Source: Fimbriimonadaceae bacterium (GTDB lineage Bacteria > Armatimonadota > Fimbriimonadia > Fimbriimonadales > Fimbriimonadaceae). Taken from it: 64,000 nucleotides of DNA. The DNA lies in assembly GCA_026129685.1 (NCBI GenBank), contig JAHCHO010000007.1:1-64000 (forward strand), written 5' to 3'. How positions within the stretch are numbered: position 1 is the first letter of the stretch; each line of letters starts with the position of its first letter. The position numbers and the translations under genes are program-made. The notes under the pieces are model-generated. The model saw nothing but the letters and a program-made list of their open reading frames with translations. It had not been told where the DNA came from and did no database searches. Of this stretch, positions 3,590 through 43,930 are shown piece after piece.

Positions 3590-3741
3590 GGTGCCTCGTC
3601 TCCCGGCTTCGCGCCGAGGGTCTTGGCGCCGAAGTTTTTCACAACCTGGCGGACGCCCAGATCAAGCTGCGCGTGTACCGTCGCTACAACAATGAGGTCC
3701 GTCCACACTCCGCGTTGGGCTATCGCCCGTCGTCGTCGCCC
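3590..3741 (+). pseudogene. IS3-family transposase (OrfB) C-terminal remnant
   Basis: The frame through 3641-3741 reads 'EVFHNLADAQIKLRVYRRYN' and then 'NEVRPHSALGYRPS', the standard C-terminal end of IS3-family OrfB. The catalytic core and any start are missing. It marks the downstream (left) border of the five-gene operon that ends at 3781. Confidence 0.7.
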
Positions 3742-3780
3742 TCTCAACATCAAGCTGGAGAGACTGCGGTTGAAACGTCT

Positions 3781-4953
3781 TCATCGCATGGGCCGGTTAC
3801 TTCGGCATCGGCTTTGGCAACCGCCCGCCGTCAGCGCGACCGAAGGATCACCTTTCCCGCACCGCCATACGGGAGGGACTGCAATCAAGACGTCTTCACC
3901 GGACGGAGCGGGCCAGGACCCCGGGCTGTTCCACCTTCCCTCATCCTGGTCGACGGTCAGCAACAGTGAGGCTGTTGATTCGTTGGCTCCCTTGATAGTT
4001 GCTTTAGCGGAATTGCGCACTTGCGTAGAGCTCGCTGCGTACATCATGCCCCGCGCGCCCTCAAAACCACAGTTGAGCGAGGCAAGGACTTGACCGAACT
4101 TCAGTCCGTCTGCGACGACTTCTGGATGATCTGCGAGCTGTTCGCAAGGCATCCCCAGGTCCATCAACACATCAATCAGCCCGGCGCTGCACCAGTCGCC
4201 GCTACCGGAGGCATCAAGAAGTCTCGGCGCGGAGTATGCGGGAAAGTCCCTCCACGAACTCCGACTAACGCCAGCACAGAACCGCATCCTAAGCCCGCTT
4301 GCTCCGAGTGTTTCTATCTCGATGGGCACTCTATGCTTCTCGACTATATGACCGATACCCCTAAGCCTCTCCTTGGAGTACTTCACTACGTGGGCCGTTT
4401 GGAGACCCTCGCGAAACAACTGTTCGTCCCCGATCCCCGAGGGTTCAAAAAAGACGAGCGCGCCGCGCGCGCGACTCCTCTTGGCGAGCATAAGGGTTCC
4501 AGGAGATGCCCGGTCGAGGTAGAACACCGAATGCTGGGGGAGACTCGCGGCAATGGATGCTGCCTCACTTGCTCGGACGGGCCTGTACGCCGGGAACGAG
4601 GCGCCGCAGACTGGGCAGACGCGTGAGAAGCGGTGGCGCGGGCGCGCTTTCGAATCAAGGTAATTCTCCTGAACGATGATCGGTGTGCCTATTCCAGGCT
4701 CAACATGGAGCAGCTCCGTTCTCACACCCCATGCCGCGAGGTCGGCAAGAAGCTCACTTCCTGGCTGATCATTGCCGATGCGTCCCACGGCGCTCGCAGC
4801 CCAGCCGAAGTAAGCCAGAATCGCAAGCACGTTCCCGCACGAGCCTCCAGCGAAACGCCTCTCGGTCGCGCCAGTTCCGACCGTGTTTCGCACCACGTCG
4901 AGGACGATGAACCCGGTGCCGACACAACTGTGCTGTTGGGCCTCACACGGCAT
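3781..4953 (-). CDS. PfkB-family carbohydrate/nucleoside kinase
   Basis: This 390-residue protein is the fifth and last gene of the island operon. It shows a PfkB layout: a 'GTGFIVLDVV' first strand, the glycine-rich substrate-side signature 'FAGGSCGNVLAILAYFG' (residues 34-50), and the ATP/anion-hole signature DASGSGDWCSAG (247-258) with catalytic Asp253. The family phosphorylates sugars, nucleosides or related metabolites, but the substrate cannot be read from sequence. A CPVCG segment (113-117) is an uncommon insertion. The start at 4953 overlaps the upstream stop by 11 bases. About 85 residues after the kinase domain are low in family-like features and run toward the IS3 remnant, so the natural C-terminus may have been replaced. 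Confidence 0.75.
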   Translation of the reverse strand: MPCEAQQHSCVGTGFIVLDVVRNTVGTGATERRFAGGSCGNVLAILAYFGWAASAVGRIGNDQPGSELLADLAAWGVRTELLHVEPGIGTPIIVQENYLDSKARPRHRFSRVCPVCGASFPAYRPVRASEAASIAASLPQHSVFYLDRASPGTLMLAKRSRARGALVFFEPSGIGDEQLFREGLQTAHVVKYSKERLRGIGHIVEKHRVPIEIETLGASGLRMRFCAGVSRSSWRDFPAYSAPRLLDASGSGDWCSAGLIDVLMDLGMPCEQLADHPEVVADGLKFGQVLASLNCGFEGARGMMYAASSTQVRNSAKATIKGANESTASLLLTVDQDEGRWNSPGSWPAPSGEDVLIAVPPVWRCGKGDPSVALTAGGCQSRCRSNRPMR

Positions 4954-6076
4954 AGCATTCTCCAGAGAGCCACATCGTGAACAGCGTCGGCGGCGTGGCG
5001 GCGCTTGTCGACTCGACGCGGTATCCCTGCGACTCGACGTGGGCAACGCCCACCGTCACCTTCGGATCTCGTCGACCTAACTCGTACGCCGCGAGGAGTA
5101 CGCCCATCGATGCCAGCTTCGAGGACATTGCAGATAGCGCGACTTTGCAGCCACCCAGTGGCTTGAGCGCGCGGTCGTAGTGAAGGATGGACCTCATGAG
5201 CTGGCGGAACACCTCGAAGGGGTTGGACTCGGCGGCGTAGATGATATTGCGCGGCTCCACACGGAGTTGGTCGAAGAGCAGTTCGCGGTACTCAATCATG
5301 ATGGAGTCTCCCTCGCGAGGGTCCTGCGCTGGCGAGGGGAGCAGCGGACAGATCTCGTCAGGCATGACGAACTGGTTGATCCGCTCCAACTGCGCCTGTT
5401 GGCGCTTCCCCAAGACGGGGATCCAGATTATCGGCTGGCCGCTTGTCGAGTCGCTCTGCATGGTTGCCCCTGCAAACCCGAAGAGGTAGCTCGCGCTCTC
5501 CTCGAGTCCCTCCTCGACGATGGCACCGTCGAGCGCGGGAGAGTGCGAGACTATGACGTGGAGATTGCGCTTCTCGCCGTCCATCGCTTCGCCATCGAAC
5601 AGCGCGAGGAGCTTTGCCAAGAGTGGCATGTAGAGGCTCCTAGGCAACGCGCTGATGTCCACGACGACATCGGTATAGGAACGGAACTCAGCCGACGAAG
5701 CGAACTCCTGGGCGATGCTTCGCGCGCCGACTCTGCGGTTGTCATCGGAGAACATCTTGATGTCCCTGTGCCCGATATTGCCGCGTCCCTGAACCAGTTT
5801 CTCGAGTCGCTCGCCATTCGCCTTGCGCTGGGCCAGATAGGTCTGCGACGGCGACTCCGCGCCCTCATCGAACGCAACTAGAGCGACGTCGCGGGTGCCC
5901 TCTCCACCGAGCTTGAGCACCCGTTCGATACCGTCGCACATCCGCACATCGAAGCCATGCCCGATCACGAAGAGCAGGTCCCTCTTCCGCTCGGCCAAGA
6001 ACAGCTTCCAGAACTGATCAAACCCTTCACCATCGCGAAGGAAGTAGTCTCGCCAGCGCAGCGAGTCGGGGCTCAT
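4943..6076 (-). CDS. unknown Rossmann-like protein of the island operon
   Basis: A 377-residue protein whose ATG overlaps the upstream TGA (ATGA). I do not recognise the family. It has alternating hydrophobic strands and loops suggesting a Rossmann-like alpha/beta fold: RDLLFVIGHGFDVR (about 30-43), 'YTDVVVDISALPRSLYMPLL' (about 130-150), 'LHVIVSHSP', and a late 'KVALSAMSSKLASMGVLLA' block followed by 'VTVGVAHVES'. The repeated pattern of two such lobes resembles ligand-sensing or SIR2/CARF-like Rossmann domains, but no catalytic signature is clear. Tight coupling to the ATPase upstream and kinase downstream implies it works in the same complex or pathway. Confidence 0.65.
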   Translation of the reverse strand: MSPDSLRWRDYFLRDGEGFDQFWKLFLAERKRDLLFVIGHGFDVRMCDGIERVLKLGGEGTRDVALVAFDEGAESPSQTYLAQRKANGERLEKLVQGRGNIGHRDIKMFSDDNRRVGARSIAQEFASSAEFRSYTDVVVDISALPRSLYMPLLAKLLALFDGEAMDGEKRNLHVIVSHSPALDGAIVEEGLEESASYLFGFAGATMQSDSTSGQPIIWIPVLGKRQQAQLERINQFVMPDEICPLLPSPAQDPREGDSIMIEYRELLFDQLRVEPRNIIYAAESNPFEVFRQLMRSILHYDRALKPLGGCKVALSAMSSKLASMGVLLAAYELGRRDPKVTVGVAHVESQGYRVESTSAATPPTLFTMWLSGECYAV

Positions 6077-7992: not shown

Positions 7993-9068
7993 GCCTCCCT
8001 CCGGTGGCGACTCACGCGGGGGAACAACGGCTGAACGGCGTCGCTATCTTCCGCCCACAGGACGAAGATGGAGTTGTTCGGGGTGTTGTGGTGGATGACG
8101 AGGGGCAGGCCCCCATCCTTGTAGCCGAAGGGGACATCGCCTCCCCACTCGGGATGCTTCTCCTTCGCGAGTGGGTCGTAGTACTTCTTGATCAGATCGA
8201 TCACCGGCTCGGTCTGGGATGCATTGAGAGAGATTTCGCTCGCGATGCGTTGGACGCACAGCACCGTGATCTCGATGCCATACGTCTTCCTGAGGACGTC
8301 GGCGCCGGTCTCGATGTTGGCCAGCGCCTGCGCGGTCGCGACGTAGAACACGACAACCAGTCGCGTCTTCGGAAACGAGACGACCGACGTCCACTCATCG
8401 GACTGCTGCACCCGATCGACGAACTTAGCGAGTTTGCCTCTGGCCCGATCGCCGTCCGCCGTTAGGCAGCTCGTCCCGCTCGCCGCGAAGTCGTCCAACA
8501 GCACGAGCGCCGGTGCGGCGTCTTTGTGGCCGCGCTTCTCGTCGAGCCACGTTCGGATCTCGTGGACCTTCTCCTTGGAAATCTCGTAGCTGGTGAAGAT
8601 CTGCTCGTGGCTTAGTTCCTTGTTGCTGCGCCTGAAATGGTCGACACGTGCACCATCGCTCAGTCCGAAGAACAGGCTCGATCCCTCAAGCCGCTCGAAG
8701 ACTTCCGTGCCAAGGACCTTGCTGACGCGATACGGATGGAACCCCGAATCCTTCGCAGCCTGCTCCATGAACACCTGTCGAATCACGTCTGGGTACGCGA
8801 TAGCTGTGAAATGAGCCATCTCGGCGTGCGAAAGGAATACGAGCCGACTCAGGACGAACTCATACGCGGCGGTGCGCTCATCCATTGGCTCGAACTGCTC
8901 GATCCACAGCGCTAAGCTCTCCACGAAGCGCATGCCGGGGCTAAACTGCTGGTACTCGTCGTACTTGAGGGCGGCCAGGGCCTGGAGCACTGGCCGTTCT
9001 CGGGCGACGTCCTCGGGCTCCCATGCCATGACGTTCGCGAGCAGGCGTTCCGCGAGTGCGTCTCTCAT
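7989..9068 (-). CDS. phosphoribosyltransferase-like protein (PRTase-CE type)
   Basis: A 359-residue protein whose ATG overlaps the stop of the SIS-HAD gene (ATGA). It has a PRPP-binding signature ALVLLDDFAASGTS (residues 187-200), comparable to the 'VDD..TTG.T' loop of type I phosphoribosyltransferases, preceded by a long N-terminal helical region and followed by a Rossmann-like 'TRLVVVFYVATAQAL'. The paired acidic residues and the G-T of the loop are kept, so PRPP binding is plausible. The substrate is unknown. Its lengthened N-terminus and operon partners fit the PRTase-CE class described in predicted conflict systems. The start 195 bases further upstream lies inside the previous gene and was rejected. 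Confidence 0.7.
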   Translation of the reverse strand: MRDALAERLLANVMAWEPEDVARERPVLQALAALKYDEYQQFSPGMRFVESLALWIEQFEPMDERTAAYEFVLSRLVFLSHAEMAHFTAIAYPDVIRQVFMEQAAKDSGFHPYRVSKVLGTEVFERLEGSSLFFGLSDGARVDHFRRSNKELSHEQIFTSYEISKEKVHEIRTWLDEKRGHKDAAPALVLLDDFAASGTSCLTADGDRARGKLAKFVDRVQQSDEWTSVVSFPKTRLVVVFYVATAQALANIETGADVLRKTYGIEITVLCVQRIASEISLNASQTEPVIDLIKKYYDPLAKEKHPEWGGDVPFGYKDGGLPLVIHHNTPNNSIFVLWAEDSDAVQPLFPRVSRHRREA

Positions 9069-11239: not shown

Positions 11240-12240
11240 GCGACACCTGGTGCTCCAAGTGGTTGCCGCCGTCCCGCTCGACAGAGACGAGGGTCTTCGA
11301 GACCAGATGTGCGGGCAAGCGGGAGCGTCCGGGCCGACGGTACGGCCCGGAGGGGCGGCGATCCTGGAACCGCTCTGGGCCGCCACGGGATTCGACCGGT
11401 CGAAGCGGTTGGCAACGTTCCTCCCCTCGCTGATCCCGATGGTCGAGGCGGAGGGGTGTCGGCCCATTCCGGACAGGGCGAAGACCCGACTCTTGAACTA
11501 TCGGTTCCGGCGACCTGCGATCGGTTGCCGCGCCCCGCCCGTCGTTCCGCCGACCGCGCGGTTCGATGCCCGACCAAGCCGGGATCGATGCTCAAAGCCA
11601 GGATCCCGATCCGCACCCGGGCGGACTGGAAGGAGGACGAACCGGGGTACGCCGAGATCGACCTCGTACACCATTGCGGATTCGAAACCTCGGGCGAATA
11701 CCTCCACAGCCTGACGCTCACCGACGTGGCCACCGGATGGACCGAGGGGCGCGCTTTGAGGAACCGGTCCCGGACGAGCTTCCTGGAGGCAATCCGCTCA
11801 ATCCGCGCGAGCCTGCCCTTTCCGCTCAGGGATCTCGATTCGGACTCCGGCGGCGAGTTTCTCAACGAGGCGATGCTTCGGTTCTGCGACGAGGAGGCAT
11901 CCGCTTCACCCGATCCAGACCGTACCGGAAGAACGATCAGCGCCGGGTCGAGCAGAAGAACTGGAGCGTGGTGCGGCAGAGCGTCGGTCACGACCGCCTC
12001 AAGGGAGAAGGGGCGCGGCGGGCTCTGAGCGCTCTGTACCGTTCGCTCGTTCTCCGGGTGAACTTCGTCCAGCCCTGCACGATTCTGGTGGCCAAGGAGC
12101 GGAGCGGATCGCGAGTGAGGAAGATCCACGATTCGGCCAAGAGCCCATGTCGTCGGGTCCTCGACCACCCGGCGGTTCCCGAAGAGCGGAAGACGGCGCT
12201 GCGCGCCCACTGGAGGCGATTCGCCCCATGGCCGTCGCCC
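11240..12240 (+). pseudogene. frameshifted integrase-type transposase
   Basis: Three frames together spell one integrase. The first covers about 11300-11495 (ATGFDRSKRLATFLPSLIP), the second about 11495-11905 (RIPIRTRADW, then PGYAEIDLVHHCG, TLTDVATGWTE and DLDSDSGGEF, which holds the second catalytic Asp), and the third from about 11905 ('RSRPYRKNDQRRVEQKNWSVV'-like, with the catalytic Glu). The block is characteristic of ISNCY/IS-type integrases with a 'VEIDLVAHCG' motif. At least two frameshifts make it non-functional. It borders the five-gene operon on its upstream side, as the IS3 remnant does on the other. Confidence 0.75.
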
Positions 12241-12591
12241 GCGAGATCGATTGCCTCAGGGACGCGCTATGGGATCATGCTCGGTAACAATCAGATTCGA
12301 GGCAACTAAGTCCGCCAAGTCACGCTTTTGATTTGAGGCAACACGCACGCACGTCTCGGCGAACAACACCAATGCCTCGCCTTGGATACAGCTCGCCTCA
12401 AGAACGACGGGAGCCGGGGTGCCGCGCTCCCGGCGTTCAGAACCCCACGGGCTCCGAAGAAGATTCCCCGAGTGAGTTCGTTAGCCCAGAGCAGGATGTC
12501 GCCGACCATTTGGGTCGCACCGACAAGACCCGTTCCAACAGCGCTATGGCGTTCTAAGTGCGTCAAGAAAGGTCCACCAACGAGTCGCCCC

Positions 12592-41808: not shown

Positions 41809-42660
41809 ATGCTCGTGCCGTTCCTCTCCTGCGTGATGGGCCTCGCCGGCCAAGCCCAACTTCCGAACCGTCACCTCGGGGCGCCTCCCGGGCCGAAGAC
41901 GGAGCTGGTACGGGTGAACGGAGTCGCCATCACCGGCGAGGACCTCGCCGCGTACCTATGGGAGTGGCGCGGGGCGGACGTGCTCCAGGAGGTCGTTGCC
42001 TACCGCATCGCGGCCGACGAGGCTGCGAAGCAAGGGGTGACGGTCTCCGACGCCGAGGTGGACAAGGCGGTCGATCGAAGGCTCCAAACGATGCGCGAAG
42101 CCCTGTCGCCGGGCAAGACGTTGGAGGACGCTCTGCAAGAACAAGGGTTCAGCCGCTCCCGCCTGTTCGTTCGCCAGAAGTCCGAGGCGCTCCTCGACCG
42201 GATATGCCTGAAGACCCTCGATCCCAAGACGTGGATCCGCGTGTCGGCGATGATCTTCCCGCCGCAGGGCCCGGGCGAGGCCGGTCTTGGCATCGCCGAG
42301 TCGATCGCCCACAAGGCGATCGAACGCCTGCGCCAAGGCGTTTCGTGGACCACCGTGTACACGGACGCCCGCGACCCCCGCCCCCGACTGGGACTGGAAG
42401 ATTGGTGGCCAACGGCGTTCTTCCCGGACGAGGCTCGCGGCTTGCTCCTTACCGCCGGGGTGGGCGCCGTCGTCGGTCCCGTTCGCACCGGTCGAGGCGT
42501 CGAGGTGTTTCGGGTCGAGGGTCTCGGCGAGACGGCGAAGGGGGACGAACGGACCCTGCTGGAACGCGCGCACCTGACCCGGAACCGAGACGCTCTCATC
42601 GAGCGCCTTCGGTCCGAGTACAAAGTCGAGCGGCTATGGCGCCCGAAAGTCCGGGGTTAG
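41809..42660 (+). CDS. SurA/peptidyl-prolyl isomerase-like periplasmic protein
   Basis: A 283-residue protein. 'VNGVAITGEDLAAYLWEWRG' is the first block of SurA/PpiC chaperones ('VNGeaIt..dl'). A helix-rich middle follows with 'VSDAEVDKAVDRRLQ'. The latter half ('AGVGAVVGPVRTGRGVEVFRVEGL') is a parvulin-like end ('G...GPv.t..GyhvirV'). It probably folds exported proteins, but proline isomerase activity is not shown. Start at 41809 leaves a weak signal segment (MLVPFLSCVMGLAGQA). It is divergent from the glycosidase, sharing the intergenic region. Confidence 0.65.
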   Translation: MLVPFLSCVMGLAGQAQLPNRHLGAPPGPKTELVRVNGVAITGEDLAAYLWEWRGADVLQEVVAYRIAADEAAKQGVTVSDAEVDKAVDRRLQTMREALSPGKTLEDALQEQGFSRSRLFVRQKSEALLDRICLKTLDPKTWIRVSAMIFPPQGPGEAGLGIAESIAHKAIERLRQGVSWTTVYTDARDPRPRLGLEDWWPTAFFPDEARGLLLTAGVGAVVGPVRTGRGVEVFRVEGLGETAKGDERTLLERAHLTRNRDALIERLRSEYKVERLWRPKVRG

Positions 42661-42706
42661 CAGGGGCCGACCATCTGCCGATACTATCTGCGGACGCGAA
42701 CCCCTC

Positions 42707-43930
42707 ATGGTTACCGGCAACAAGCCGATCTTCGTGGCACGACAGCCCATCTACGACGCCGACGGCAACGTGACGGCGTACGAGGTGCTGTTTCGCAGGG
42801 GGATGGAGGGCGGCGCCGGCGTCGTCACTCGCACCGAGTCGGCGATGTCCATCGTCAACGCGATCGTCGAGATCGGACTCAACGACCTGGTGGGAGACAA
42901 GAGGGCGTTCATCAACGTGACCGAGGAACTGCTGCTCGAGGACTGCCTCGACGTCCTGCCGCGCGACCGCGTGGTGATCGAGATTCTCGAGAACGTTCGC
43001 CCCTTGCCCGAGGTTGTGGACGCGGTGCGCTCGTTGGTTCGGCGGGGCTACACCGTCGCTCTCGACGACTTTGTCCACCACGAGAGCCTTCGCGTGTTCA
43101 CCGAGTTGGCGACGATCGTCAAGCTGGACGTGCAGGGTCAGGACTTCGACGCCCTGAAGAGGGCCACCGGGCACGTGCGTCGTCCGGGCGTGCAACTGCT
43201 CGCCGAGAAAGTCGAAGACCGGCCGATGTACTCCCGCTGCAAGCGCTTGGGATTCGACCTCTATCAAGGTTACTTCTTCATGAAGCCCCACGTGGTGGCG
43301 GGTTCCAGCATGCGCACCAACCGCGTTTCGTTGCTTCGGCTCCTGACCCGGCTCCAGGACCCGAACGCCCGAATCCAAGACCTGGACGAGATCATCCGGG
43401 CGGACGTCACCCTCAGCTATCGGCTGCTCAAGCTGACCCATTCGGTCGAGGCGGCGGCGCGCGCGCGGATCGAAACGGTGGCGCAGGCGATCCAGTTCTT
43501 GGGAATCCGCAAGGTGTCGAGCATCGCCATGCTTCTCGCTCTGGCGGGCGCGGACGACGTGCCGCAGGAGTTGATCATCGGCGCATTCACGCGGGCGCAC
43601 ATGAGCGAGAATCTCGCCCGGACCCGGGGATTCGACGAGCCCAGCAAGGTGTTCCTGGCCGGGCTGCTTTCCGTTCTGGACGCGATTCTGAACGTCCCGA
43701 TGGAAGAGGCCCTCGCGATGCTGCCGCTGGCAGACGATCTGCGCGAGGCGCTGGTCAACCCCGAAGCGGAGGGCGGCATCGCTCAGTTGCTGCGCGAGGT
43801 GAAGGCCTACGAGCATGGAGACTGGGACACCGTGGAACTCGGGCTCCAACGCGGACAGGACACGATTTCCGCCTATCTGAGCGCCATCAAGTGGAGCCAC
43901 GAGGTCGAAACCGCGCTCCAAGCGGCCTGA
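42707..43930 (+). CDS. EAL-HDOD signalling protein (YuxH-like)
   Basis: A 407-residue two-domain protein. The EAL-like part (1-190) has IFVARQPIYDADGNVTAYEV, 'RGYTVALDDF' and 'FDLYQGYFFMKP'; the catalytic EAL is replaced by EVL and the loop by 'DDFVHHES', so it is probably non-catalytic and may only bind cyclic di-GMP. The HDOD part (about 205-400) begins LRLLTRLQDPNARIQDLDEI, with 'SYRLLKLTHS'. These proteins usually act in two-component or motility control. Start at 42707 coincides with the first domain. Nothing around it gives a partner. Confidence 0.85.
   Translation: MVTGNKPIFVARQPIYDADGNVTAYEVLFRRGMEGGAGVVTRTESAMSIVNAIVEIGLNDLVGDKRAFINVTEELLLEDCLDVLPRDRVVIEILENVRPLPEVVDAVRSLVRRGYTVALDDFVHHESLRVFTELATIVKLDVQGQDFDALKRATGHVRRPGVQLLAEKVEDRPMYSRCKRLGFDLYQGYFFMKPHVVAGSSMRTNRVSLLRLLTRLQDPNARIQDLDEIIRADVTLSYRLLKLTHSVEAAARARIETVAQAIQFLGIRKVSSIAMLLALAGADDVPQELIIGAFTRAHMSENLARTRGFDEPSKVFLAGLLSVLDAILNVPMEEALAMLPLADDLREALVNPEAEGGIAQLLREVKAYEHGDWDTVELGLQRGQDTISAYLSAIKWSHEVETALQAA

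Follow-up and report, generated by a model that had tools for sequence, protein, structure and literature searches.

What is the product of the one gene that could be placed in no family in an operon of otherwise assignable enzymes, and what could it do among them? The gene lies at positions 4943–6076 (minus strand) of the window, i.e., the 64,000-nucleotide stretch of a Fimbriimonadaceae genome (contig JAHCHO010000007.1) that was analysed here, and codes for a protein of 377 amino acids counted from its ATG. It is the fourth gene of an operon of five, all on the minus strand, which in the order of transcription code for a two-part SIS-HAD protein (10939–9065), a phosphoribosyltransferase (PRTase; 9068–7989), an ORC-CDC6-like ATPase (7992–6073), the protein under study, named CARF6 below, and a PfkB-type kinase (4953–3781). 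The gene shares its first 4 bp with the end of the ATPase gene (6073–6076) and its last 11 bp with the start of the kinase gene (4943–4953). The initial annotation had described it as translationally coupled on both sides; the overlaps make such coupling plausible at both ends. Relatives of the protein are encoded in four myxococcal genomes (81–92% identity), on 17 plasmids (27–39% identity), and also on viral contigs, and since the reading frame is kept across them, 4943–6076 is a gene rather than an ORF arisen by chance.

The protein is a member of the catalogued CARF6 family, and the assignment is strong. The PADLOC profile PDLC01910 matches it with E = 5e-110, residues 7–376 aligning with profile positions 2–348, and CARF6 profiles match 19 of the 19 relatives in alignment A1. 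The match to the PADLOC family (CARF_CARF_CARF; PDLC01910 and PDLC01916) is full-length, with no difference at the family level. The statement that this was the sole member of the operon without an assignable family therefore does not hold. As to the proposal of a new two-lobed, Rossmann-like sensor family, the sensor idea was right, CARF being the answer, whereas the novelty has to be given up, CARF6 profiles having been present in PADLOC since 2023. Pfam, NCBIfam, and PHROGs returned no usable match, and the silence of the first two explains why the protein had seemed unrecognised. The Pfam domain XdhC_C was rejected as its identity (E = 0.14, far under the cut-off), and neither the protein nor its profile, when searched against PDB sequences, found a relative of solved structure. 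Nor does the protein belong to a common housekeeping enzyme family, the outcome named beforehand as refuting the proposal. In PADLOC CARF6 is entered as a component, with no tested system shown in the database and no functional description attached to the profiles; the classification presumably derives from Makarova 2020. Two of the A1 sequences additionally match the CARF1-HEPN (4.5e-5) and Csx1 (1.6e-4) profiles, which at the level of sequence provides an independent link to the wider CARF superfamily.

AlphaFold2 models were obtained for the window protein (built on nine sequences; pLDDT 68, pTM 0.75) and for a relative 30% identical to it (pLDDT 75, pTM 0.81), both of moderate confidence and, sharing most of their alignment sequences, only partly independent. 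The two-lobed alpha/beta pattern noted previously is seen in both, the window protein having an N lobe at residues ca. 30–212 (GHGFDVR at strand 1, DISALPR at strand 4) and a C lobe at residues ca. 213–377 (CPLLPSP, ESNPF, and LSAMSSK at strand 4). The plain Foldseek ranking was noisy for both models. Its first ranks, the regulatory domains of KCC/NKCC transporters and KaiC (TM 0.2–0.3), are global misalignments, rejected because VIA, a second structural alignment applied to Foldseek's candidates, placed CARF proteins first. The best VIA matches of the window model were Csx1-Crn2 (Z 9.8, rmsd 3.6, 155 residues aligned), Csm6 (Z 9.3, rmsd 3.4, 134 residues), and Cam1 (Z 8.7, rmsd 4.0, 151 residues), with SAVED domains coming after the CARF rows (Z 7.2–7.7, ca. 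200 residues). The relative's model was matched best by Csm6-2 with cA5 (Z 12.5, rmsd 4.2, 248 residues, both lobes), next by Can2 (Z 10.7), Card1 (10.2), Cam1, Csa3 (9.3), Cad1, and the ring nuclease Sso2081 (Z 8.0); all of its top 20 VIA rows are CARF proteins, and unrelated folds start with LarE (Z 7.2). A Rossmann-like CARF core is thus present in the predicted models (VIA Z up to 9.8 and 12.5). CARF, the first of the folds suggested for testing in the initial annotation, is backed by both the PADLOC profile and the structural matches, and none of SIR2, SLOG, and PfkB occurs among the VIA rows listed for the two models. Profile comparison with hhalign detected no sequence similarity between the two lobes, or between the lobes and three SAVED sets.

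The CARF signature following strand 4 is [DN]x[ST]xxx[RK] (PMC4012209), and D140-I-S142-A-L-P-R146, in the block VDISALPR directly behind the predicted strand 136–140, fits it. The pattern is expected by chance about once per two proteins of such length (our estimate), so the weight rests on its position and on the invariance of D140 and S142. The 'VDISALPRSLYMPLL' block to which attention had been drawn is indeed present; none of the 24 sequences departs from D140 or S142, whereas R146 is replaced in about half of the family. Its C-lobe counterpart, the basic residue K320, is kept as K or R in 24/24. Where R146 is present, position 318 in the other lobe is mostly serine, and where it is absent mostly glycine, with exceptions; this pairing may reflect two ligand classes, though it follows phylogeny. 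A serine or threonine at the end of strand 1 is found 'often' in CARF domains, being typical rather than universal (PMC4012209); it is missing from the N lobe of CARF6, where the loop reads G-x-G-F-D-x-R. The invariant polar residues of the family are D140, S142, C243, E283, and Y352, and they, together with the ring nuclease Sso2081 among the structural matches, are what could speak for CARF6 as a brake rather than a trigger, which in a ring-nuclease-like or antitoxin-like manner would degrade or sequester the signal and hold PRTase off. We consider this quite improbable: a ring-nuclease catalytic signature was not identified in CARF6, and the ATPase, set between CARF6 and PRTase and strictly linked to them, suggests a relay.

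The partners of CARF6 have intact catalytic motifs. The ORC-CDC6-like AAA+ ATPase (639 amino acids; Pfam PF24389, E = 6e-18) has Walker A APGGGKTS and Walker B ITFDDM, and its Walker motifs are present in 19 of 19 relatives. The PRTase, of the PRTase-CE type (ATG at 9068; Pfam PF24390, E = 1e-22), has an intact PRPP loop, LDDFAASG, and matches the PADLOC profile PRTase_III-A (PDLC02933) with E = 1.4e-18. In the SIS-HAD protein, whose start codon, TTG, is uncertain, the SIS-like N-terminal part was assigned by motif inspection, with just a weak NagB-type match, and the C-terminal part is a HAD-IIB phosphatase with the DYDGT motif (NCBIfam HAD-IIB, E = 4e-6; Pfam Hydrolase_3, E = 5e-4 and up to 1e-8 in relatives). 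The PfkB-type sugar/nucleoside kinase (Pfam PF00294, E = 3e-10) has the GxGD motif and a CPVCG insertion. An inserted CPxCG is found in the PfkB proteins of alignment A5, several relatives having a C-terminal CxxC and other members lacking the second cysteine; judged from the sequences, the cysteines are perhaps a zinc site, unusual among PfkB kinases. The last ca. 50 residues of the kinase do not align with its relatives, and this stretch may have been altered by an IS remnant.

Transposase remnants bracket the operon, with a broken integrase-like frame at ca. 11300–12300 upstream and an IS3-like fragment at 3660–3750 downstream of the kinase gene. Two 40-nt direct repeats, 73% alike, lie at the 3' end of that gene (3757–3796 and 3872–3911); they resemble CRISPR repeats but were rejected as such, since no further copy of the 20-base core of the first turned up in the genome when up to 3 mismatches were allowed. 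Elsewhere in the window are an ArdC-like anti-restriction protein of the kind that conjugative elements typically carry, with a zincin metallopeptidase domain (1502–2398), and, on the minus strand at ca. 200–1216, an IS481-like transposase frame recognised by inspection, with a G+C content of 48%, below that of the rest of the region.

The five families recur together in four myxococcal genomes, on four viral contigs, and on plasmids of Rhizobium, Agrobacterium, Sinorhizobium, Bradyrhizobium, Bosea, Sphingomonas, Sulfitobacter, Paraburkholderia, and Paenarthrobacter, 8 of the 17 carrier plasmids being typed as conjugative. The PRTase, ORC, and CARF6 genes are contiguous and in identical order in 20 of 20 intact readable neighbourhoods, while SIS-HAD and PfkB stand before them, after them, or on both sides. 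Many copies of the system come with NADAR, an HTH regulator is also often present, and the window's genome has no NADAR gene. A degraded copy, with the PRTase, CARF6, and SIS-HAD frames split, is carried by a plasmid of Rhizobium sp. CC-CFT758 (L017). Pairwise distances correlate with r = 0.95–0.97 among PRTase, ORC, and CARF6, with 0.93 between SIS-HAD and PfkB, and with 0.72–0.84 across these two sets, all values being descriptive and uncorrected for shared ancestry. As judged from these distances, PRTase, ORC, and CARF6 co-evolve as one module, and SIS-HAD with PfkB as another.

Part of the first module appears to have moved on its own. DNA identity to the myxococcal copies L002 and L003 is ca. 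85–96% over ORC and CARF6 (ca. 8050–5000) and 63–75% in PfkB; synonymous divergence from L002 is 0.26 for ORC and 0.30 for CARF6, as against 0.74 for SIS-HAD, 0.69 for PRTase, and 2.0 for PfkB. The low values of ORC and CARF6 relative to the flanking operon genes point to a recent joint exchange, so the two were apparently swapped as a unit, as would suit proteins that are physically matched. Identity is also raised in part of the PRTase/SIS-HAD junction, and the region is therefore a mosaic and not one clean block.

The modular arrangement bears on the possibility of a messenger made by the operon itself: PRTase, PfkB, and SIS-HAD would together build a (phospho)ribosyl nucleotide of non-standard type, to be sensed by CARF6 and acted upon by the ORC-like ATPase. 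CARF6 is indeed accompanied by three or four enzymes of sugar/nucleotide type whose motifs are intact, and an outside synthase common to the carriers was not found. The SIS-HAD and PfkB genes, however, form a module separate from PRTase-ORC-CARF6, two plasmids have two such triplets per single SIS-HAD/PfkB set, and one viral-contig copy and one plasmid copy have no PfkB nearby, so we hold this explanation to be unlikely. The same enzymes, with a nucleoside 2-deoxyribosyltransferase sometimes near copies of the operon, are also compatible with an unusual nucleotide-metabolism locus, i.e., a metabolic or regulatory operon of nucleoside salvage with no role in defence. A salvage operon of this kind is very improbable in the case of a system that is rare (found in 2 of the 291 genomes from the phylum and in 1 of 96 from another family), plasmid-borne, and IS-flanked, that is linked to a CARF protein and an ORC-like ATPase, and that has a caspase and a patatin-type phospholipase among its neighbours.

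CARF proteins are known chiefly as receptors for cyclic oligoadenylate made by Cas10. The window's genome has two Cas10/Cmr2-type genes with an intact GGDD cyclase motif, both on other contigs (L028 and L029; type III-B-like, contig C11 at ca. 42069–43370 and contig C15 at ca. 218756–220252); behind the one on C15 lies a Cmr3-like frame recognised by inspection, and no CRISPR array was found near either. CARF6 might thus read cyclic oligoadenylate from a type III CRISPR system elsewhere in the cell, the operon being a Cas10-dependent ancillary effector acting in trans, and its best structural matches are indeed CARF proteins binding cA4, cA5, and cA6. Against this, no Cas10 above the cut-off was found in any of five other carrier genomes (G211 and G291–G294, some of the assemblies being incomplete), G292 having one weak, partial, sub-threshold match, nor on the sequences of 11 carrier plasmids, and no cas genes are annotated within ca. 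8 kb of 13 plasmid loci. The lack of Cas10 above the cut-off in the five other carriers makes the Cas10 product unlikely as the general ligand of CARF6, while in the window's genome it is possible; the Cas10-dependent reading as a whole is rather unlikely. Of 251 genomes from the phylum, none gave a match to the Csx1 HEPN profile. A TIR-SAVED-like protein (L043; contig C13, 21082–21597, the TIR part recognised by inspection) suggests a CBASS-type system elsewhere in the window's genome. A further possibility, which we regard as decidedly doubtful, is a self-contained immunity in which the operon's phosphoribosyl enzymes would make a non-standard messenger and the tandem CARF would read it without Cas10 or a CD-NTase, switching the ORC-like ATPase and PRTase.

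With moderate confidence, we assign to CARF6 the role of sensor in a candidate anti-phage system that is mobile and has PRTase, ORC, and CARF6 as its core, SIS-HAD and PfkB as accessory proteins, and often NADAR and an HTH regulator. By analogy with known systems, PRTase would be the effector and the ORC-like ATPase the transducer. As for the ligand, the direction of signalling, and the chemistry of the effector, we infer the following course. Infection would raise a nucleotide-type ligand, which would bind in the composite pocket of CARF6; the state of CARF6 would be handed to the ORC-like ATPase, which would license PRTase, and the latter would use up PRPP or modify a nucleotide or nucleic-acid target, so that the infected cell is stopped. 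The HAD phosphatase of SIS-HAD, the PfkB kinase, and NADAR may then process phosphoribosyl or ADP-ribosyl products, trimming, recycling, or detoxifying those of the phosphoribosyl type.

In sum, CARF6 is a catalogued sensor in a candidate defence operon that is rare, mobile, and uncharacterised and whose mechanism is hypothetical; no description of the five-gene set was found in a literature search, the Makarova 2020 CARF paper and most subscription journals being outside its reach. In genomes with no detectable Cas10, the strict tie of a sensor made of CARF alone to PRTase and an ORC-like ATPase makes the CARF6 ligand directly testable, the five-gene set being compact and clonable, and the system also gives a handle on the action of the PRTase effectors that it has in common with type III retrons.

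The closest structural counterpart of CARF6 is Csm6-2 of Actinomyces procaprae, which has two CARF domains per chain forming one composite ligand pocket (PMC13187428). The tandem CARF in one chain is common to both proteins, and the two CARF-like Rossmann lobes of CARF6 would form a composite pocket in the same manner. Csm6-2, however, carries HEPN RNase domains and is part of a type III-D CRISPR system, whereas CARF6 has neither a fused effector nor a CRISPR neighbour. The SAVED domains of CBASS (Cap4, Cap5, Cap14) resemble the CARF6 model in having two CARF-like lobes per monomer; they differ in that CARF6 has no SAVED profile match and no hhalign similarity to SAVED, and the operon has no CD-NTase (no SAVED or CD-NTase match for the five operon proteins in Pfam at E ≤ 1). 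With type III retrons, of which PRTase is the typical effector (PMC12548924), the operon shares the PRTase family (PRTase_III-A), accompanied in each case by a partner gene whose product is likely DNA-binding. It differs in having no reverse transcriptase or retron RNA: no reverse transcriptase was found among the five operon genes with Pfam and none is annotated in the plasmid neighbourhoods (from incomplete PLSDB gene tables), the places of sensor and transducer being filled by CARF6 and the ORC-like ATPase. A PRTase also figures among the systems that the DefensePredictor paper reports as validated (PMC13092281), and PRTase is part of the tested DprA-PRTase defence system of P2-like phages (PMC9122126), in which it is likewise the proposed effector under a separate sensor, that sensor being DprA.
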